NCBI GenBank assembly: GCA_902517495.1
Contig: CABYCO010000012.1
Span: 1-34,096 of the forward strand
Direction of reading: 5' to 3'
DNA length: 34,096 nucleotides
Source of the DNA: an uncultured Pelagibacteraceae bacterium
GTDB taxonomy: Bacteria; Pseudomonadota; Alphaproteobacteria; Pelagibacterales; Pelagibacteraceae
Position numbers and translations under genes: made by a program. Positions 5,075-18,072 of the stretch are shown here, piece after piece (position 1 is the stretch's first letter; each line of letters opens with the position of its first letter). A model generated the notes under the pieces. That model did not search any database. It saw only the letters and a program-made list of their open reading frames with translations, and was not told where the DNA came from.

Positions 5075-6038
5075 AAGCTTTGAATTTGAAAAACTTAAAT
5101 CTAATAAATCTAATTTTCATTTAATTTATGGAAATAACGAAGGGATTAAAGAAGATATTATTGATAAATTTTACCTTAAAAACTTCACTGGAGAATTATT
5201 AAAATATGATGAACAGGAAATTTTAAATAATAAAGATGAATTCATTTCAAGTTTGTTAATGGAGTCCCTTTTTGAAACTAGTAAGTTGATTATAATTTCA
5301 AGAGCAACTGATAAAATGATTGAGACTATTAAATATATATTAGAAAGAAATTTAGAGGCTAGAATTATAATAAAATCCTCTACTCTAGAAAAAAGATCTA
5401 AACTTAGAAGTTTATTCGAAAAAGGAGATCAGATGATCTGTACACCCGTTTATGAAGATGACAATAAATCACTAGGTATAATTATTAACAATTTTCTAAG
5501 AGAATATAAATTAAATTTGTCGCAAGAAATTAAAAATATTCTCATCGAAAGATCAAAAGGAGACAGAATTAATTTAAGAAATGAGTTATTAAAATTGAAA
5601 AATTTGTCAGTTAGTAAGAACAAATTAAGCATCGATGATGTAATTAAACTTTCAAATCTTGCAGAAAATTATAGTGTGTTCGAACTATCTGACAATTATT
5701 TAGCTAAAAATTCAAAGAAAGTTTCTAATATTCTTAATGAAAATAATTATTCATCTGAGGATTGTATACTTATAATAAGAACAATATTGAGCAAATCTAA
5801 AAGACTTTTGAAAATAAGAAATGAAATTGACAATCATGCAAACATTGATCAGGCTATATCCAGCATTAAACCACCTATATTTTGGAAAGAGAAAGATACA
5901 GTTAAAAAACAAGCTCAGTCATGGTCGACTAATGAGGTAAAAGAAATTATTTTTAAGATTAATAACTTAGAAGCTTTAGTTAAGAAAAATACAACAAATT
6001 CTATGCTATTTGTGTCTAATTTTGTAAGCAATTATTAA
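5064..6038 (+). CDS. holA: DNA polymerase III delta subunit
   Basis: This protein is the clamp-loader subunit that opens the beta sliding clamp; it is AAA+-like but does not bind ATP productively. At 324 residues it has the usual HolA length. The N-terminus has FHLIYGNNEGIKED, the HolA substitute for a Walker A region, followed by an all-helical region with GDRINLRNELLKL and the C-terminal collar segment NNLEALVKKN. It lies directly after lptE with an 11-base overlap. Its 3' end overlaps the convergent parB by 4 bases, leaving no room for a separate terminator. Confidence 0.92.
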   Translation: MIIKSFEFEKLKSNKSNFHLIYGNNEGIKEDIIDKFYLKNFTGELLKYDEQEILNNKDEFISSLLMESLFETSKLIIISRATDKMIETIKYILERNLEARIIIKSSTLEKRSKLRSLFEKGDQMICTPVYEDDNKSLGIIINNFLREYKLNLSQEIKNILIERSKGDRINLRNELLKLKNLSVSKNKLSIDDVIKLSNLAENYSVFELSDNYLAKNSKKVSNILNENNYSSEDCILIIRTILSKSKRLLKIRNEIDNHANIDQAISSIKPPIFWKEKDTVKKQAQSWSTNEVKEIIFKINNLEALVKKNTTNSMLFVSNFVSNY

Positions 6039-6886
6039 TAATTTTGCTTAATAATCTCCACTAACCTATCAAGCTGATCAGTCCCTTTATACTCCAAACT
6101 AATAGTTCCGGAATTGTTTCTTTTATTTTTAACAAAAACTCTCATTCCAATCTTATCTGTTAACTCTTCCTCAAGACTTACAATATTTGGATCTTTTTTC
6201 TTAGAAGAACTATTATAATTAGATTTCAACATACGTACTAAACTTTCAGCTTGCCTAACTGATAGTTTTTTTGAGATAATTTTTTTTGCTAAAAATATGG
6301 CATTATCTAAACCAACTAAAATTTTTGCATGACCCTGTGATAATTTTTCATCAATTATTAACTTTATAATCTCTTGTGGTAGAGACAGAAGTCGTAAACA
6401 ATTTGATATGTGCGCTCTACTTTTACCTATGAATTTTGATACTTTGTCCTGATCATAAGCAAATTCATCGATTAATCTTTTATAACCTTCAGCTTCTTCT
6501 ATTGGATTTAAATCTTTCCTTTGAACATTTTCAACAATTGCAAATTCTAATGATTTAAGATTATCTACGTTGATTACGACTACTGGTACTTCATGAAGTC
6601 CAGCAAACTGGGCTGCCTGCCATCTCCTTTCTCCTGCAATTATTTCAAATCTATTTTCTTCATCAGAAGAAGGTCTAACAATTATAGGCTGGATAATACC
6701 TAGCTCTCTTATAGAATTTGTTAATTCCTCTAAACTAGTTTCGTCAAATTTTTTTCTAGGTTGATACTTATTTCTAACTAGTGAGCTTATTGAAACATTC
6801 TTTTTATCTTCAATTTTCTCACTATCGCCTATTAAGCTAGACAATCCTCTTCCTAACCCTTTTTTTGATTTAAACGGATTAATCAT
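6035..6886 (-). CDS. parB: Chromosome-partitioning protein ParB
   Basis: This CTP-dependent DNA clamp loads at parS and works with ParA to segregate the origin region. The 283-residue protein has the N-terminal ParA-interacting KKGLGRGLSSLIG (8-20). It also has the CTP-binding motifs GERRWQAA (85-92) and ENVQRKDLNP (119-128), a helix-turn-helix around 147-165 and a C-terminal dimerisation region. It overlaps parA by 4 bases (ATGA), so the two are translationally coupled. The parS sites at 8258 and 8590, just upstream in the same gene block, are its expected targets. Confidence 0.97.
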   Translation of the reverse strand: MINPFKSKKGLGRGLSSLIGDSEKIEDKKNVSISSLVRNKYQPRKKFDETSLEELTNSIRELGIIQPIIVRPSSDEENRFEIIAGERRWQAAQFAGLHEVPVVVINVDNLKSLEFAIVENVQRKDLNPIEEAEGYKRLIDEFAYDQDKVSKFIGKSRAHISNCLRLLSLPQEIIKLIIDEKLSQGHAKILVGLDNAIFLAKKIISKKLSVRQAESLVRMLKSNYNSSSKKKDPNIVSLEEELTDKIGMRVFVKNKRNNSGTISLEYKGTDQLDRLVEIIKQNY

Positions 6887-7683
6887 GCTGCACTCTCCAC
6901 TGGTTTATCTTGGTTTAAAAATTCTTCTGTGAAATTAAAATATGCTCTACTACCTGGACATGACTTATCATAAATTAAAACTGGGACACCGTGTGATGGC
7001 GCTTCTGATAATCTGACATTTCTTGGAACCGCTGTAGTATAAACTTTATCTTTAAAATAGTTTCTAGCCTCAGTCTCAACCTCACCAGATAATTTATTTC
7101 TCTTGTCATACATTGTCAGAAGTATTCCTCTTATATCTAAAGATGGATTTAGGTTCGACTTTATCCTATCAATTGTTTTCATCAGCTGAGTAAGTCCCTC
7201 TAAAGCAAAAAATTCTGTCTGAAGTGGTACCACAAGAGCATCAGAAGCTACCAATGCCATAATTGTAAGAAGGCTTAAGGATGGTGGGCAGTCAATTATG
7301 ACATAATCATAAGATAGCTCAGAATTGTTTAAAATTAAGGCTAATTCATCTTTTAATTTGAAAGCTCTCCGGCTATCACTGGCTGTCTCCACCTCTAGTC
7401 CAGACAAATCAACATTTGATGAAATCAAATCTAAATTTTTGAAACTTGTAGACTGGATAACATCTGAAATTTTTTTATTTCCATTTAATACATTGTAAAT
7501 TGTTTGATCAGAGCTTGTTGCATTGGATAATCCAAGGCCTGTTGTAGCATTCCCTTGCGGATCAAGATCAATTACAAGAATTTTTTTTTCTTTCATCGTT
7601 AAACCAGCTGCAAGATTGATGACTGTTGTGGTCTTACCCACTCCACCTTTCTGATTTATGACCGATATAATTTTTCTACTCAT
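6883..7683 (-). CDS. parA: Chromosome-partitioning ATPase ParA (Soj)
   Basis: This ATPase binds DNA non-specifically and positions ParB-bound origins. The 266-residue protein has the deviant Walker A motif KGGVGKTT (12-19) with its signature lysine, Walker A' DPQG (41-44), and DCPPSL (131-136) at the Walker B position. There is no N-terminal DNA-binding extension, so it is the chromosomal rather than the plasmid type Ia form. It overlaps rsmG by 8 bases upstream and parB by 4 downstream, in the conserved order mnmG-rsmG-parA-parB. Confidence 0.97.
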   Translation of the reverse strand: MSRKIISVINQKGGVGKTTTVINLAAGLTMKEKKILVIDLDPQGNATTGLGLSNATSSDQTIYNVLNGNKKISDVIQSTSFKNLDLISSNVDLSGLEVETASDSRRAFKLKDELALILNNSELSYDYVIIDCPPSLSLLTIMALVASDALVVPLQTEFFALEGLTQLMKTIDRIKSNLNPSLDIRGILLTMYDKRNKLSGEVETEARNYFKDKVYTTAVPRNVRLSEAPSHGVPVLIYDKSCPGSRAYFNFTEEFLNQDKPVESAA

Positions 7684-8320
7684 GTTTTTTTTTTAAGTTT
7701 GAAATTTTTACTACTGATGACTCATCACTTGTTAGACTTTTCATTTCCTCCAAGTCAAATTTCCATTTTTTTGAAACATCTTCCAAAATCTTTTTTCCAC
7801 TCTTGCCTAAATACATGACTATATATTTAAAATTTTTAAAATTCTTTGTTGCTATCTCAAAAATCACAGGTAAAGGTTTAAATGCTCGACAAATTATTAC
7901 GTCTGTAACTAAATTTTTCTCATCAAATATATTTTTTTGGTGAATTTTTGCTTCCAATTTAAACTTTTTTACCATCTCTTTTAAAAAATTACTCTTATGA
8001 TAGCTCTTCTCATAAAAAATTAGCTTAAAACCTTGCTTTTTGGATTTCATCAAAATACCCAAAACTATACTAGGAAGCCCTGCACCTGAGCCAAGATCAG
8101 TACATACCTTAATATCATTTTTATCAATAAATTCAATGGTTTGTGCGCTATCATAAATATGCCTTGTATTTATTGACTTTTCAGTGCTTGAGCTTATCAA
8201 ATTTATTTTCTTATTTGTGCTCAATATTGACTGAGAATAGTCCCCTAACTCCTTAAGTGTTTCACGTGAAACATTTGGCAGATAAATTTTATCAGTTTTT
8301 ATTATTTTCGAATCAATCAA
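7676..8320 (-). CDS. rsmG: 16S rRNA (guanine-527-N7) methyltransferase
   Basis: This SAM-dependent enzyme (also called GidB) methylates G527 of 16S rRNA. It is 214 residues long. The SAM-binding motif DLGSGAGLP is at 75-83, preceded by the family-typical NLISSS and RHIYDS segments. The start is TTG at 8320, overlapping the mnmG stop codon. VSRET (17-21) is encoded by a perfect parS site, so that peptide is shaped by the DNA site as well as by the protein. It is part of the mnmG-rsmG-parAB block. Confidence 0.95.
8258..8273. promoter_or_regulatory. parS centromere site (perfect 16-bp palindrome)
   Basis: TGTTTCACGTGAAACA is an exact match to the consensus bacterial parS, the ParB loading site. 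It lies inside the rsmG coding sequence and is translated on the minus strand as VSRET. A chance exact match to a 16-mer is negligible. It is about 8.8 kb from the putative origin and about 0.6 kb upstream of parA. Confidence 0.97.
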
Positions 8321-10188
8321 GCTATATGCTTAATAGACTTTCTTTTGACATGAGACAACAAAATATATACTGCAGCTGGAGTAATCCCATCTATTCTAAG
8401 TGCTTGACCAAGTGTTTTTGGCTTTATTTTTTTAAATTTTGACTTAACCTCATTTGATAATCCTGAAAATTGATCATAATTTAGATTTTCTGGGATTTTG
8501 AGGTTTTCATCTCTTTTAAATGCTAAAATGTCTGCATCTTGCTTCTTTAAATATCCTTTATAGTGAGCTTTTATCTCAATTTGCTCATCGATTTCACGTG
8601 AAACATATTTAATTTCAGGCCAAATTTCCCTAATTTTACTCATATTTACTGACTTTTGGCTCAGTATTTCTAATGCATTTCTTTTAACCCCATCTTTGGC
8701 AATGTTAATTCCAAATTTAGATACTTTTGAGGGGGAAATTAAAGAATTTTCCATATTTTTAAGATTTTTTTCCAATTTAGAAGCTTTCTCTTTATATATA
8801 AATTTCCTTTCATTTAATATTAAACCTATATCAATTCCTTTTTGGGTAAGTCTTATATCTGCATTATCAGATCTCAAAGATAGCCTATATTCTGCCCTTG
8901 AAGTGAACATTCTATAAGGCTCTGCAACTCCTTTTGTAACTAGATCATCTATCATAACACCTATGTATGCCTCAGATCTATCAAGTATAAATGGTTCTTT
9001 ACCTTTAATAGAGAGAGCAGCATTTATTCCGGCTATCAATCCTTGTGCTGCAGCTTCTTCATATCCTGTTGTTCCATTTATTTGTCCTGCAAGGTAAAGG
9101 TTTTTAATTTTTTTTGTCTCTAAAGTTAAAAATAACTCCCTTGGGTCCACAAAATCATATTCTATTGCGTATCCAGGTCTTAAAATGTTTACATTTTCTA
9201 AACCATTGATATTATTGCATATTTCTTGCTGTATTTCAGCAGGTAGGGAAGTTGAAATTCCATTAGGGTAGATTGTTTTATCATTTAGACCTTCAGGCTC
9301 TAAAAATATTTGATGTTTTTGCTTATCAGCAAACTTTACAATTTTATCTTCTATGGAAGGACAATATCTAGGGCCAACACCTTGGATACTTCCTGAGTAC
9401 ATAGCACTACTTTTAATGTTTTTAGATATGATCTCATGAACTGCACGATTAGTATATGTCATCCTACATGAAATTTGTCTATTGATATTTTTTTTTGTAA
9501 GGAAAGAAAAAAAATATGGATCTTCGTCTGCGTGCTGCTCTTCGAGTCTTTCGAAATTAATTGTCGTTGCATCCAATCTGGGTGGTGTTCCTGTTTTTAA
9601 TCTTCCAATTTTAAAATCATATTTTTCTAATTGCTCACTTAAACCTGTTGAAGGTTTTTCATTAAATCTTCCTGCAGGTGTTTTTTCTTTACCAATGTGA
9701 ATTAAACCGTTTAAAAAAGTTCCAGTTGTTAGAATTACTTTAGATGATAGTACTTTTTTACCTTCCTGTGTAATAAAACCAATTATATTGTTTTTTGTAA
9801 AAATGAACTCTATTACAGGATCAGAAAAAATGCTTAAATTACAATAATTTACAAGTTTTTCTTGCATATATTTCTTGTATAATGATCTATCACTTTGTGT
9901 ACGGGGTCCACGCACTGCAGGGCCTCTGCTTCTATTTAATAATCTAAATTGTATCCCTGATTTATCTGCAACTTCACCCATTACGCCATCTAGTGCATCT
10001 ATCTCTCTAACAAGGTGCCCTTTGCCTAATCCTCCAATTGCTGGGTTACATGACATTTCGCCAATTGTATCAAATTTATGAGTGAATAAGGCAGTATTTA
10101 CACCCAATCTAGCAGATGCTGCTGCTGCTTCACAACCAGAATGACCACCACCAATTACAACTACATCAAATGATAACTCGTTTTTCAT
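8317..10188 (-). CDS. mnmG: tRNA uridine-5-carboxymethylaminomethyl modification enzyme MnmG
   Basis: This FAD-binding subunit (GidA) forms, with MnmE, the complex that modifies the wobble uridine 34 of several tRNAs. The 623-residue protein has the dinucleotide-binding GGGHSG (13-18), the MnmG signature [18 protein letters not shown] (47-64), [11 protein letters not shown] (89-99 region) and a second FAD contact [17 protein letters not shown]. The helical C-terminus ends in a SHVKR-containing tail. It is the first gene of the mnmG-rsmG-parA-parB run and lies 76 bases downstream of mnmE, its functional partner. It contains the second parS-like site. Confidence 0.98.
8590..8605. promoter_or_regulatory. 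Second, degenerate parS-like site
   Basis: GATTTCACGTGAAACA matches parS at 14 of 16 positions, differing only in the outer two bases on the left. It lies in mnmG and is read as VSRE on the minus strand, like the perfect site 332 bases away. The full inner TTTCACGTGAAA core suggests that ParB could bind it, perhaps more weakly. Confidence 0.75.
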
Positions 10189-11662: not shown

Positions 11663-12526
11663 TTGATTATTTGGTTGGCGTCATATCCTAAAAGTGGAAA
11701 TACATGGGTAAGATTTTTTATTATTTCGTTATTAATAGGCGATAAAACAAAATTAAATCTTAATCATTTAAATGCTATATTAGACTTTCCTAACATTAAA
11801 CAATTTGAAGGACTGATATCTGAATTCTCAGATTTAAAAGAAGTTTCTAAAAATTGGATTAATGCTCAAGAAAAAATTAATTCTGATAAAAGTTTTAAAT
11901 TTTTTAAAACACATAATATGCTTGGAAAATTAAATGGATTTTCTTTTACAAACTACGAGAACACGCTTGCAGCTATTCATATTGTAAGAGACCCTAGAAA
12001 TATTATTACATCTCTAAAAAATCATTGGTCTTTAGAAACATACGATGAAACAAAAAAATTGATGTTTAATGATAAACAAATTTTAACACTATCAGTAAAA
12101 GAGCAAAAAAAATTTAAAAAATATAAAAATAAACATTCACTTCCCCAAATGATTGGTTCATGGAAAACAAATTATATTTCATGGAAAAAAATGCGTAAAA
12201 ACTATCTTTTGGTGAAATATGAAAATCTTATTAAAAACCCAAAAACAGAATTTACTAAGATAGCAAGTTTTATAAGTAGTTTAACTAATATTAAGTTTGA
12301 TGATAAGCAGATAAATAATGCAATGAAATTAAGTTCTTTTGAAAAACTTGAGGCTATGGAGAAAGAGTACGGTTTTATAGAGAGCGCGATTAATAAAAAA
12401 GGAGGTAAAAATAAATTTTTTTACTTAGGACCAAAAAATAAATGGCAAGATATATTAGATTCTAAGATCAGTAATAACATTGAGGAAGTTTTTAAAGTAG
12501 AAATGAAAGAGCTAGGGTATTTGTAA
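11663..12526 (+). CDS. Sulfotransferase family protein
   Basis: This 287-residue protein has the 5'-phosphosulfate loop SYPKSGNTW (7-15), a TFLKTH-like FFKTHN (80-85) and the 3'-phosphate motif RDPRNIITS (109-117). Together these define the PAPS-dependent sulfotransferase fold. The acceptor is unknown; candidates in marine bacteria include surface glycans, lipids or small metabolites. No signal peptide is seen. The start is TTG at 11663 with GAGG at 11648-11651, 11 bases upstream, and no in-frame ATG lies near. It is the only rightward gene between mnmE and rho, and its stop abuts the convergent rho end, so it looks like an insertion into a conserved block. Confidence 0.85.
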   Translation: MIIWLASYPKSGNTWVRFFIISLLIGDKTKLNLNHLNAILDFPNIKQFEGLISEFSDLKEVSKNWINAQEKINSDKSFKFFKTHNMLGKLNGFSFTNYENTLAAIHIVRDPRNIITSLKNHWSLETYDETKKLMFNDKQILTLSVKEQKKFKKYKNKHSLPQMIGSWKTNYISWKKMRKNYLLVKYENLIKNPKTEFTKIASFISSLTNIKFDDKQINNAMKLSSFEKLEAMEKEYGFIESAINKKGGKNKFFYLGPKNKWQDILDSKISNNIEEVFKVEMKELGYL

Positions 12527-13799
12527 CTAAGAAGGTTTATTCATAGAGTTAAAAAACTCAGCATTATTTTTTGTTGTCTTTAATTTGGAATTAATAAAAT
12601 CGATAGCATCCATCGATCCCATGGGAGCAATAATTCTTCTTAAAACATTCATTTTTTGCAGATCATTTTTATCAAAAATTAATTCTTCACGTCTTGTCCC
12701 TGATTTAGTTATGTCTATTGCAGGATAAATTCTTTTTTCTGAAATTTTTCTATCTAAAATGGTTTCACTGTTACCTGTTCCTTTAAACTCTTCAAAAATT
12801 ACTTCATCCATTCTGCTTCCTGTATCAATTAAAGCTGTTGCTATTATGGTAAGTGAGCCACCCTCTTCGATATTTCTTGCAGCTCCAAAAAATCTTTTGG
12901 GTCTTTGAAGAGCATTTGCATCTACCCCTCCTGTCAAAACTTTACCAGAACTTGGAACAACAGCATTATAAGCTCTTCCTAATCTTGTGATGGAATCTAA
13001 TAAAATTACAACATCTTTTTTATGTTCAGTCAATCTTTTGGCTTTTTCAATTACCATCTCGGCAACAGCTACATGGCGTTGGGCTGGCTCATCAAAGGTT
13101 GAACTTATTACTTCACCCTTTACAGTTCTTTGCATGTCTGTAACTTCTTCAGGTCTTTCATCAATCAGTAAGACCATTAAATAGCATTCTGGATGATTTG
13201 CAGTTATAGAATTAGCTATGCTTTGTAAAATCATAGTTTTACCTGCTTTCGGTGGTGAAATAATTAACGACCTTTGACCCTTTCCAATCGGGCTGACCAA
13301 ATCAATTAATCTTGGGGTCAAATCTGGTTTTTTTTTCAATTTTATTTGTTTCAACTTCCATACCTAATTGTTTGTTGGGGTAAAGAGGAGTTAAGTTGTC
13401 AAATGCAATTTTGTGTTTGAATTTATCTGGCTCTTCAAAATTTATTTTACTTACTTGTAAAAGTGCAAAATATCTCTCTCCATCTTTCGGGGATCTTATT
13501 GGACCTTCAACTGTATCCCCTGTTCGTAGACCAAATCTTCTTATTTGACTAGGACTAACATATATATCATCAGCTCCAGGTAAATAATTTGACTCCATTG
13601 CCCTAAGGAAACCAAAACCATCTTGCAGTAATTGTAAAACACCTCCACCAGTAATCTCTTCACCTTTTTCGGCAAGTTTTTTTAAAATTGCAAAATAAAT
13701 TTCTTGTCTACGTAGTGTGCTAGCATTCTCTATACCTAGCCTTTCAGCTTCAGTGATTAATTTTTCAGAGCTTTTTTCTTTTAGTTCTTGAATGTTCAT
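12527..13799 (-). CDS. rho: Transcription termination factor Rho, interrupted by an apparent one-base frameshift
   Basis: This hexameric RNA helicase terminates transcription. The N-terminal part (13799 to about 13328) has the helical NIQELKEKS start and the RNA-binding cold-shock-like domain ([20 protein letters not shown]). The C-terminal part (about 13336 to 12527) continues with [19 protein letters not shown], Walker [22 protein letters not shown] and the secondary-channel [20 protein letters not shown]. They lie in different frames, joined at an A9 tract. With eight As the frame would run [10 protein letters not shown] and give about 423 residues, the normal Rho length. No catalytic motif is lost, so a sequencing or assembly indel, or transcript slippage, is more likely than a dead gene. 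Confidence 0.93.
13328..13336 (-). other. A9 homopolymer at the rho frameshift
   Basis: Nine Ts on the plus strand (A9 in the mRNA) mark where the two halves of rho change frame. Removing one A restores a continuous reading frame. Other long runs in the window, such as A10 in coaE (19601-19610) and two A11 runs in lolA (31945-31967), lie in intact frames. Confidence 0.9.
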
Positions 13800-15961: not shown

Positions 15962-16960
15962 CTAATAATCTCTTACCATTTTCACTAAATAATCTACCAT
16001 ACTAGGGTCAGTTTGGGGCATTATACCATGTCCTAGATTAAATATATAAGGGTGATCCTTAAATATATCCAGATATCTTTTTGTCTCTCTTGCGAGAGTT
16101 GCCTTATCAGCTAGGAGGATTTTGGGATCCATGCCGCCTTGGATGGGTATATTTATTTCATGCACTATTTTATTTGGGTCGACATCGTAATCTATATTTA
16201 CAGCATCAGGTTTTACGATTTCACAGAAATTTTTATAGTCTTTAATGCCTCTAGGAAAACAAATAACGGGAACTCCTAATTTTTTTACATACTCTACAAT
16301 GCTTAGTGTAGGTATATAAATATATTCTGGAATTTTATCCTCTAATAATCCAGCCCAACTATCGAAAATTTGAATGACTTGAGCTCCTGCTTCAATTTGA
16401 TTTTTTATATGAAGTTTTAAAAATTTTTCTATAATTCCTAAAAATCTATTAATTAAAAAATCATCTTTAAAAAATTCATTTGACAAACCTTTCTTGGGAG
16501 AAGATTTATTAATCATGTAAACTAGTATTGTCCATGGAGCTCCAACAAATCCAATCATATCTCTATTATTCATTAAAGGGTCTTTAGAGGTTTTTTCGAT
16601 TGCTTTATAAACTTTATAAATTTTTTCAGTAAAACTTATTTCATCAACATTTTTTATTGTTTCTAAATTTATATCTCCCAATTTAGGACCAAAATTTTTT
16701 TTAAATTCTACTTTTTGGCCAAGTCCGTACGGTAACATTAAAATATCTGAAAATATTACCGCCCCATCAAATCCAAACCTTTTAATTGGTTGTAGAGTAA
16801 TTTCAGATGCTAAATCACTATTTAGGCAAAGTTTTATAAAATCTTGGTTTTCTTTTCTAATTTCTCTAAACTCTGGAAGATATCTACCCGCTTGTCTCAT
16901 TAACCATATAGGATTAGTTTTAGTATCTTTATTTTTAATACAGTTAGTTATGGGACTCAT
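15962..16960 (-). CDS. hemE: Uroporphyrinogen decarboxylase
   Basis: This enzyme decarboxylates the four acetate groups of uroporphyrinogen III to give coproporphyrinogen III. It is 332 residues long. The signature WLMRQAGRYLPEFREIR starts at residue 19 and includes the conserved arginines, and the substrate-binding aspartate lies in IFSDILMLPYGLG (about 74-86). Later motifs are FVGAPWTILVYM, IFDSWAG, NIDYDV and a GHGIMPQTDP block near the C-terminus. It is the first gene left of the putative origin and is transcribed away from it, as in Caulobacter and Rickettsia. Confidence 0.97.
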   Translation of the reverse strand: MSPITNCIKNKDTKTNPIWLMRQAGRYLPEFREIRKENQDFIKLCLNSDLASEITLQPIKRFGFDGAVIFSDILMLPYGLGQKVEFKKNFGPKLGDINLETIKNVDEISFTEKIYKVYKAIEKTSKDPLMNNRDMIGFVGAPWTILVYMINKSSPKKGLSNEFFKDDFLINRFLGIIEKFLKLHIKNQIEAGAQVIQIFDSWAGLLEDKIPEYIYIPTLSIVEYVKKLGVPVICFPRGIKDYKNFCEIVKPDAVNIDYDVDPNKIVHEINIPIQGGMDPKILLADKATLARETKRYLDIFKDHPYIFNLGHGIMPQTDPSMVDYLVKMVRDY

Positions 16961-17001
16961 ATAAATAGATATATATTATTTACTGTATTAGTATTATGTA
17001 T

Positions 17002-17010
17002 TGTGAATAA
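17002..17010 (-). promoter_or_regulatory. DnaA box (perfect match)
   Basis: TGTGAATAA on the plus strand reads TTATTCACA on the minus strand, an exact match to TTATNCACA. It is the only exact match I see in the hemE-ppsR gap. With about 30% G+C, I estimate roughly a 2% chance of one such match in 284 bases on two strands. Confidence 0.75.
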
Positions 17011-17037
17011 CGTAAATTAGTCAATTATCACACTTGT

Positions 17038-17053
17038 TTAACTATTTATTAAC
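17038..17053 (+). promoter_or_regulatory. CtrA-type binding site overlapping a near-consensus DnaA box
   Basis: TTAACTATTTATTAAC fits TTAA-N7-TTAAC, the CtrA consensus of alphaproteobacteria. It sits inside a larger inverted repeat (TTGTTTAA at 17034-17041, TTAACAA at 17049-17055). TTATTAACA (17046-17054), one mismatch from a DnaA box, overlaps it. In Caulobacter CtrA represses initiation from overlapping origin sites; whether that holds here is inference. Confidence 0.5.
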
Positions 17054-17109
17054 AACTTGTATCTAAAATTAGTCCCATATTTAAGGCATTAATTAAGGTT
17101 TCTCATATT

Positions 17110-17127
17110 TTATGTATATTATGTATA
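17110..17127 (+). repeat. Tandem 9-base repeat in the origin region
   Basis: TTATGTATA occurs twice head to tail with no spacer (17110-17118 and 17119-17127). Each copy differs from a DnaA box (TTATGCACA) by two C-to-T transitions, so these may be weak DnaA sites or part of the unwinding element. This is suggestive only. Confidence 0.6.
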
Positions 17128-17244
17128 ACTTTGTTAACATTTTATAATTTAGTTAATTAAATGGAAGGAAAACTAACTTTAAGTCCTCAGAGGAATAAAT
17201 CTGCATTTTTCTTATTTTACTAATAGTTTATAAACATCTTATAC

Positions 17245-18072
17245 ATGAGAAACTTATATCAAATTTATTTAATATCAGATTCTACTGGCGAAACACTTGA
17301 TAGAATTTTTTTAGCTTTGAAAGCACAATTTCCTAATTTCGAATACGAAACAAATCATTTTTCTTTTACACGTACTGAAAGTCAAACTCTTAGTATACTA
17401 AAACAGGCAAAAGAAGATAAAAACTCAATTATTTTATATACTATTGTTAATAGTAAATTAGCAAAATATCTCACAGAAAAAGCATACGAAAGAAAGATAC
17501 CTTGTTTTGGAGTTTTAGGAGACCTGATTTTAAATTTCTCTAAAGTTTTAAATCAAAAAGCTTCTCACCAACCGAGCGGACAACATATTTTAAATGAAGA
17601 ATATTATGATAGAATTGAAGCTATTCAATTTACGATGAACCATGATGATGGTAATCAAACTGATGATATAGAAAAATCAGATATTATTTTATTAGGTGTA
17701 AGCAGAACCAGTAAAACACCTACTTCCATTTATCTAGCTAATAGAGGGTACAAAACTTCAAATATTCCGTTGGTAAATAAAAATTCTATACCATCTAAAG
17801 TTACTGAAAGAAATTTTAGACCATGCGTTGTTGGTTTAATTACAGAAGCAGAAAGATTATATGATTTGAGAAAAAATAGATTGAATTCATTGAAAGAAGA
17901 TCAAAATAGTGAATATGTAAATATTGATAAGATTAAAGATGAACTTAATAGTGCTAGAAAATTATTCAAAGAGAATAATTGGCCAACTATAGATGTAACA
18001 AGAAAATCAGTTGAGGAAACAGCAGCGTCAGTAATAAAAATTTTTGAGATAAAGAACAAAAAAAATGCCTAA
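17245..18072 (+). CDS. ppsR: Bifunctional kinase/pyrophosphorylase regulating PPDK or PEP synthase (DUF299)
   Basis: Proteins of this family (PpsR/PDRP) inactivate phosphoenolpyruvate synthase or pyruvate phosphate dikinase by ADP-dependent phosphorylation of a threonine, and reactivate it by phosphorolysis. The 275-residue protein opens with YLISDSTGETLDR (8-20). It carries the P-loop GVSRTSKTPTS (151-161) followed by LANRGYK, the family hallmark. The last third holds TRKSVEETAASVI. The sequence does not show which dikinase is the target. It is the first gene right of the putative origin and starts the run ppsR-maf-aroE-coaE-dnaQ, overlapping maf by 8 bases. Confidence 0.94.
   Translation: MRNLYQIYLISDSTGETLDRIFLALKAQFPNFEYETNHFSFTRTESQTLSILKQAKEDKNSIILYTIVNSKLAKYLTEKAYERKIPCFGVLGDLILNFSKVLNQKASHQPSGQHILNEEYYDRIEAIQFTMNHDDGNQTDDIEKSDIILLGVSRTSKTPTSIYLANRGYKTSNIPLVNKNSIPSKVTERNFRPCVVGLITEAERLYDLRKNRLNSLKEDQNSEYVNIDKIKDELNSARKLFKENNWPTIDVTRKSVEETAASVIKIFEIKNKKNA

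Follow-up and report, generated by a model that had tools for sequence, protein, structure and literature searches.

In oriC of Escherichia coli a strong DnaA box stands beside the unwinding element and is followed by low-affinity DnaA boxes about one turn apart. Closer to the locus considered here are the origins of Caulobacter and Rickettsia, for which the account in PMC1914354 gives hemE and a COG1806 gene as the published origin border and lists an IHF site among the predictive origin features. A further point of comparison is the basal unwinding system (BUS) of Bacillus subtilis and many other bacteria, where, in the rule as presented in PMC8287927, a DnaA box with no more than two mismatches to TTATCCACA lies 0-16 bp from the trios. 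With regard to the regulators of alphaproteobacterial replication, it has already been published that SAR11 lacks CtrA and possesses CcrM, with Pelagibacter described as being without a ctrA orthologue (in the relevant part of PMC2877005) and SAR11 described as having a CcrM homologue (in that of PMC3973325).

The window analyzed here is the whole 34,096-nucleotide stretch of contig CABYCO010000012.1, from an uncultured Pelagibacteraceae bacterium. From its sequence and that of its relatives, the gap between hemE and ppsR in this window is very probably the chromosomal origin of a SAR11 bacterium.

The hemE-ppsR locus and its neighborhood

The gap spans positions 16961-17244 (284 bp) and separates hemE, the uroporphyrinogen decarboxylase gene on the minus strand (15962-16960; TIGR01464, 309.6 bits, above cut-off), from ppsR, a COG1806/DUF299 gene on the plus strand (17245-18072; NF003742, 303.2 bits, above cut-off). 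The PpsR protein is 99% identical to that of the uncultured Pelagibacteraceae (SAR11) genome AG-457-J09. The two genes are adjacent in 139 of 141 loci fetched from the genus, and gaps were excised from these; the other two loci start at ppsR at a contig end and, being without hemE, were left out. Among the 114 unique gaps the length is kept at 261-286 bp, with a mean GC content of 0.17, despite the sequence having largely diverged. Conservation was assessed in 43 representative gaps that are less than 80% identical, with stricter subsets of 20 sequences below 70% and 14 sequences below 60% identity. The window's own genome contains another, weak match to the gap sequence (G000:C13, E 8.8e-4), and Rfam gave nothing in the window at the gathering threshold.

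With names taken from Pfam matches, the genes to the left of the gap run parB-parA-rsmG-mnmG-mnmE-(sulfotransferase ORF)-rho-(unnamed ORF)-(flavodoxin-like ORF)-hemH-hemE, and those to the right run ppsR-maf-aroE-coaE-dnaQ-like-secB-fxsA, continuing to hslU-like-hslV-like. Both parB (6035-6886; Pfam ParB_N, HTH_ParB, and ParB_C) and parA (6883-7683; Pfam AAA_31) are on the minus strand and, together with a perfect parS, lie 8-11 kb from the gap. This parS palindrome sits inside rsmG at 8258-8273, 8.7 kb from the gap, and a copy with two mismatches is found inside mnmG at 8590-8605, both identified with the parS consensus. The relative G009 carries a one-mismatch parS about 7 kb from its gap. 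Two features of this otherwise origin-typical block are worth recording in their own right. A sulfotransferase-domain ORF (11663-12526, plus strand) stands between mnmE and rho, and rho itself is split into two overlapping ORFs in different frames (12527-13354 and 13302-13799, minus strand), dividing the Rho_N/RNA-binding part from the ATPase part; this frameshift is either real or an assembly error.

Probable position of the origin in related genomes

Because the window's own genome (1.05 Mb, 79% complete) is assembled in 46 contigs, too fragmented for skew analysis, three single-contig congeners were sampled, namely G009 (1,343,202 bases, of which 800 kb were sampled), G080 (800 kb), and G109 (769 kb), covering 56-64% of each genome. 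An exact fit of the cumulative-skew minimum of G009 to the gap was discarded as interpolation-dependent and not robust: with another bridging of the unsampled stretches the minimum falls at 1,269 kb for GC and 1,315 kb for AT skew, the gap being at 1,262 kb. Because this minimum shifts with interpolation, a two-arm test was used instead, in which the mean skew of one half-genome minus that of the other is calculated for each candidate origin, with origin and terminus taken as half a genome apart, and compared with block permutations.

In this test the GC-skew optimum lies +8 kb from the gap in G009 (none of 300 permutations as high); the offset is -29 kb for G080, where 3 of 1000 permutations are as high, and +25 kb for G109, where 2 of 1000 are. 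The positions outscoring the gap amount to 2.8, 0.8, and 0.5%, respectively. The GC-skew switch is thus within 29 kb of the gap in all three relatives, where a hemE-linked origin would place it, and this supports the origin reading. The A-T optimum is found +25 kb from the gap in G109 (7/1000) and 81 kb off in G009 (9/300); in G080 it is not significant (595/1000), and A-T skew there gives the origin no support. Skew is weak in these genomes and tracks gene direction. With half the sampling, the GC skew of G080 and G109 is not significant (69/300 and 49/300), and third-position skew over 20 stretches of G009 contains no clear replication component.

In many bacteria the origin lies near dnaA-dnaN, and if this were so here the gap would merely be a divergent promoter regulated by DnaA. 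This explanation can draw on the position of dnaA, whose separation from the gap (61-64 kb in these relatives) is too small for the skew estimate to resolve. However, the GC optimum is 8, 29, and 25 kb from the gap vs. approximately 72, 90, and 39 kb from dnaA, synteny and parS favor the gap, and five dnaA loci hold 0-1 TTATNNACA boxes each in 3.2 kb with no box cluster, making an origin at dnaA very improbable. The near constancy of the dnaA-to-gap distance (61-64 kb) in three diverged genomes, each a single contig (G009, G080, and G109), is an observation in its own right. DnaA retains RPRQ, SLPEIGR, and RDHTTV in domain IV, which also counts in favor of the origin reading.

The relatives' skew, synteny of the Caulobacter/Rickettsia type with parAB and parS, and a conserved DnaA-box anatomy all support an origin at the hemE-ppsR gap, as had been proposed from the single sequence, and this location is the expected alphaproteobacterial one.

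DnaA boxes and their spacing

The elements first listed for the gap (the DnaA boxes, TTAA-N7-TTAAC, two repeats, and the lack of GANTC) are all found where they were placed. In the window alone they are within chance, with two TTATNCACA boxes vs. 2.29 expected and one TTAA-N7-TTAAC vs. 1.75 expected, and therefore the case rests on relatives. Across the 43 representatives, TTATNCACA occurs 32 times vs. 1.4 in shuffles, TTATTAACA 45 times vs. 2.6, and TTATNNACA, which is present in every representative, 125 times vs. 15.5 in dinucleotide shuffles. DnaA boxes in excess of chance are a mark of the alphaproteobacterial hemE-linked origin. The gap also holds the densest TTATNNACA cluster of the window (three boxes; elsewhere one), and the same is true of the gap within the 800 kb sampled from G009 (three; elsewhere at most two).

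The conserved core comprises four T-A-N trios in an AT-rich end, the box R1 (TGTGAATAA) with a weak abutting box, and box positions at +22, +33, and +44 from R1. In the window R1 is the DnaA box TTATTCACA (17002-17010, minus strand), oriented toward the trios and the highest-scoring of 14 positions. Six or more of its seven specified bases are kept in 40/43 representatives and all seven in 30/43, compared with 5.9 and 0.4 of 43 in shuffles treated alike. Abutting R1 is the weak DnaA-like box TAATTTACG (17011-17019, minus strand), which forms a tandem with it; the identical word is found in 22/43 representatives and at least five of seven bases in 36/43. A ladder of plus-strand boxes follows, beginning at +22 with ATTATCACA (17024-17032), which is degenerate here (4/7) but has at least five of seven bases in 32/43 representatives (z 4.4), and continuing at +33 with TGTTTAACT (17035-17043), likewise degenerate here (4/7; at least five of seven in 37/43; z 4.6), and at +44 with TTATTAACA (17046-17054), which is complete (7/7; at least five of seven in 40/43; z 5.3). 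No other forward offset from R1 rises above z 2.8, and the same three remain the top offsets in both the 20-sequence and the 14-sequence subset. When forward boxes with at least six of seven bases are collected from +12 to +59 (n = 82), 66 are at multiples of 11, and a further 10 are at +20, +31, or +42. The conservation of DnaA boxes anticipated for SAR11 gaps is seen in 43 representatives both as enrichment and as locking to position.

Information content follows the same anatomy, at 1.59 bits per column for R1, 1.36 for the trios, 1.35 for the abutting box, and 1.08 for the ladder vs. 0.46-0.84 for the remainder. Conservation is poor over the right half of the gap, at 0.46-0.51 bits per column. 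Few words of the gap are as conserved as TTATAAACA (17228-17236, plus strand), a 9-mer 9-17 nt before the ppsR start which keeps at least six of seven bases in 34/43 representatives when anchored on the ppsR end; it may be either a weak DnaA box or a ppsR leader element. Both repeats are local: the tandem TTATGTATA, two copies at 17110-17127, is found twice in one of the 43 representatives (12 of the 114 unique gaps), and the AAATTAGTC pair (17014-17022 and 17066-17074) also in one (two of 114). The IHF site WATCAN5WTR, treated here as accessory rather than as a required criterion, shows no enrichment in the representatives (14 vs. 16.1 in shuffles) and is present in 10/43.

Proposed trios and unwinding region

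The AT-rich segment adjoining hemE (16961-17001) is proposed as the duplex unwinding element. Calculated over 41 bp, its melting energy falls within the lowest 0.18% of window positions, with five other separate places in the window melting lower. Within it are four T-A-N trios (TAT TAG TAT TAT; 16986-16997, plus strand), proposed as DnaA-trios and separated from R1 by a 4-nt spacer (16998-17001). The mean score for four consecutive T-A-N at this offset is 3.40 of 4 vs. a median of 0.60, the best offset in the gap, and it is still the best among the 14 sequences less than 60% identical. Four trios are found in 27/43 representatives and at least three in 37/43, with column conservation of 93-100% for T, 74-93% for A, and 58-86% for the third base. 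Boxes and trios are thus conserved in sequence and in spacing.

The window follows both of these sequence rules of the BUS. TTATTCACA has one mismatch to TTATCCACA and a 4-nt spacer, and the four trios exceed the minimum of three with a middle A, with the pattern leaving the strand unfixed. Because TA is self-complementary, a shift of one base gives the minus strand an equal T-A-N score, and the pattern alone does not determine the strand. A plus-strand reading yields 100 TAT, 44 TAG, and 2 TAA, whereas on the minus strand the trios read TAA, TAC, and TAT, with no TAG.

The T-A-N periodicity could also belong to an AT-rich unwinding element without trio function, in an origin otherwise as proposed. 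Three N-A-N in a row is a permissive pattern in AT-rich DNA, the self-complementarity of TA leaves the strand unfixed, and in the second family, described below, 14 of the 21 gaps are without a trio run. Set against this are the frame and the distance to R1, which are kept even among the 14 most divergent sequences, the stronger conservation of T and A than of the third base, and the plus-strand TAT/TAG trios, which include the commonest BUS trio. Overall, an unwinding element without trios seems rather unlikely to us, and we favor trios that function in opening.

A second family of the order

In the family f2 of the same order, a PpsR match was found in 0/24 genomes. All 21 f2 loci examined have hemE, then a gap of 262-275 bp, and then maf (e.g., L241 1673-1947; L281-L301). 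The hemE-side end of the gap carries three to four consecutive TAG/TAT trios in 7/21 and a single T-A-N in 14/21, and support for the trio reading in this family is accordingly mixed. The TTATNNACA box was not found in 14/21 of these gaps. With the gap kept and the boxes mostly not, the exact boxes look younger than the gap and its size.

These loci also bear on the role of transcription, as the left core and the 3' element could be promoters, of hemE and ppsR respectively, with conservation owing nothing to replication. The gap is indeed the sole upstream region of the divergent hemE and ppsR, and TTATAAACA lies 9-17 nt before ppsR. However, one sigma-70-like site is found vs. 4.2 in shuffles, and it is outside the core; moreover, promoters predict neither the 11-bp DnaA ladder, nor the T-A-N periodicity beside R1, nor a gap length kept without ppsR. 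We consider conservation through transcription improbable and the origin the better account of the core.

The apparent CtrA site

The sequence-only reading took TTAA-N7-TTAAC at 17038-17053 (plus strand) for a CtrA site and concluded that CtrA control of the origin had been kept. This does not hold. None of 59 genus genomes, the window's own included, exceeds the cut-off of the NCBIfam CtrA model (best 142 of 350 bits), a model for which 1 of 14 control genomes is above cut-off. In the window's own genome two PF00486 regulators were found, with 132 and 99 bits on the CtrA model. With no CtrA found, CtrA probably plays no part at this origin.

The motif itself follows from the ladder, its two halves being the centers of the +33 and +44 boxes. 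TTAA-N7-TTAAC is enriched in the 43 representatives (17 vs. 2.6 in shuffles), and of the TTAA pairs those with N7 spacing number 34 vs. 12.1 in shuffles, compared with 17 vs. 11.6 for N6 and 18 vs. 11.5 for N8. Measured from R1, every plus-strand copy (13/13) is at +25 or +36, positions at which ladder-box centers are spaced 11 bp apart, while the four minus-strand copies include one at ladder phase (+35) and three at +144, +146, and +176. As 14 of 17 copies are at ladder phases, the motif is not independent of the DnaA boxes; it is enriched among relatives, yet mostly locked to DnaA-box phase. Additionally, the DnaA-box columns carry 1.32 bits vs. 0.81 for the TTAA middle columns, and CtrA would predict the reverse. 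From this pattern we read the apparent CtrA site as a by-product of the DnaA ladder.

An origin repressed by CtrA through a TTAA-N7-TTAAC that overlaps a DnaA box, with CcrM methylation lost, has in its favor the enrichment of the motif and an overlap like that in Caulobacter. It is extremely improbable in view of the genus-wide CtrA result and the published lack of a Pelagibacter ctrA (PMC2877005, as far as that source is drawn on here), the ladder phasing and low information of the TTAA middle, and the presence of an encoded CcrM. The simplest reading is loss of the origin brake, not its substitution.

CcrM, GcrA, and GANTC

The idea that CcrM had been lost was wrong. A PF01555 DNA methylase is above cut-off in 56/59 genus genomes, the window's own included, where it is a CcrM homologue of 357 aa that contains a RAMA domain and matches the solved CcrM 6pbd over the full length (E 7e-141); this protein alone was characterized in detail. 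It scores 577.6 bits on the NCBIfam CcrM model, below the cut-off of 830, and the CcrM call therefore rests on the RAMA domain, the 6pbd match, and PMC3973325. GcrA is above cut-off in 36/40 genomes.

The accompanying observation on GANTC was accurate, with none in the gap and the nearest sites at 16954-16958 and 17278-17282. Since about 0.16 GANTC are expected per gap, absence from one gap carries little information. The 43 representatives contain three vs. 6.9 (sd 2.4) in shuffles, slightly below composition, and 5 of the 114 unique gaps have the site. Over 800 kb of G009, GANTC is at 0.44 of second-order expectation, the lowest of 16 comparable palindromes. The survey in PMC3973325, in the part relevant here, reports under-representation of GANTC in alphaproteobacterial orders except Rickettsiales, and includes Magnetococcales, which are without CcrM, so that the G009 deficit is suggestive only. 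A GANTC at ppsR codons 12-13, present in 43/43 representatives, was considered as a CcrM signal and rejected: the adjoining Ser11 is also TCN in 43/43, and codon constraint suffices to explain it. Serine codons of G009 are TCN at a frequency of 0.54 after Asp and 0.45 after Glu vs. 0.73 overall, which suggests that GANTC avoidance shapes SAR11 codon choice.

Proposed mechanism and significance

Taken together, the gap is probably oriC, with R1, its tandem box, and the ladder predicted to bind DnaA, the trios and AT-rich end to open, no involvement of CtrA, and GANTC kept outside the gap. DnaA binding and strand opening are proposed by analogy with the BUS, whose sequence rules, as given in PMC8287927, the window follows. 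We infer the DnaA occupancy, the direction of the filament, the site of unwinding, and the absence of another brake. DnaA would nucleate on R1 (17002-17010), the strong box, together with the weak box in tandem with it, and further DnaA would fill the weaker ladder boxes (+22, +33, and +44), which are spaced by one turn of the helix. Growing leftwards from R1, the filament would then cover the T-A-N trios (16986-16997); the AT-rich segment adjoining hemE (16961-17001) would melt, and the helicase would be loaded there. CcrM is encoded, with its GANTC sites outside the gap.

A broader possibility, which we advance tentatively, is that of a stripped-down origin in which the CtrA brake is gone, CcrM-GcrA is kept but nearly siteless, and DnaA acts through a strong box, a trio-like opener, and a one-turn TTATTAACA ladder, with TTAA-N7-TTAA a by-product of phasing. 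If this is true, some predicted CtrA sites in AT-rich rickettsial origins are perhaps the same illusion. Two misreadings of an AT-rich origin are corrected here, namely TTAA-N7-TTAA as a CtrA site and missing GANTC as loss of CcrM.

As far as the open-access matches listed show, the box ladder, the trio core, and the by-product CtrA site of SAR11 origins are new. In the parts of PMC2031905 and PMC2099444 concerned, Pelagibacter is named only in skew surveys. Among the open-access matches listed, no title describes a SAR11 origin, subscription journals and DoriC being outside that scope. Predicted Pelagibacter origins are probably held in DoriC. SAR11 bacteria are among the most abundant cell lineages of the ocean, and to our knowledge little is understood of how they time their replication. 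Mapping the origin and defining its boxes would give peak-to-trough estimates of growth an anchor, and the gap offers a small target for studying DnaA-only control in an alphaproteobacterium free of CtrA.

Comparison with known origins

The SAR11 gap resembles Caulobacter Cori and Rickettsia oriC, as these are presented in PMC1914354, in its border genes, its DnaA boxes, and its AT-richness. It is the shorter, at 261-286 bp vs. 383-404 bp in Table 1 of that source, and the description of a compact origin is upheld. Unlike Cori, the SAR11 origin is without CtrA, and CtrA-like sites are found across 43 gaps only at ladder phase and at three other places. GANTC is nearly absent from the SAR11 gap despite CcrM, whereas the C. 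crescentus origin has several (PMC3973325, in the passage concerned).

With the BUS, in the form set out in PMC8287927, the SAR11 gap shares a DnaA box, a tandem weak box, a short spacer, and trios with a middle A. The SAR11 trios are mostly TAT with some TAG, whereas the commonest BUS trio given there is 3'-GAT-5'. Also unlike the BUS as described, it is the better box that adjoins the trios in SAR11, and a ladder of opposite orientation lies on the other side.

Finally, the candidate origin recalls the layout we gave at the outset for E. coli oriC, with a strong box beside the unwinding element and weak boxes about one turn apart. It differs from E. coli oriC in having three ladder positions only, a weak word (TTATTAACA), and no enrichment of the IHF site.
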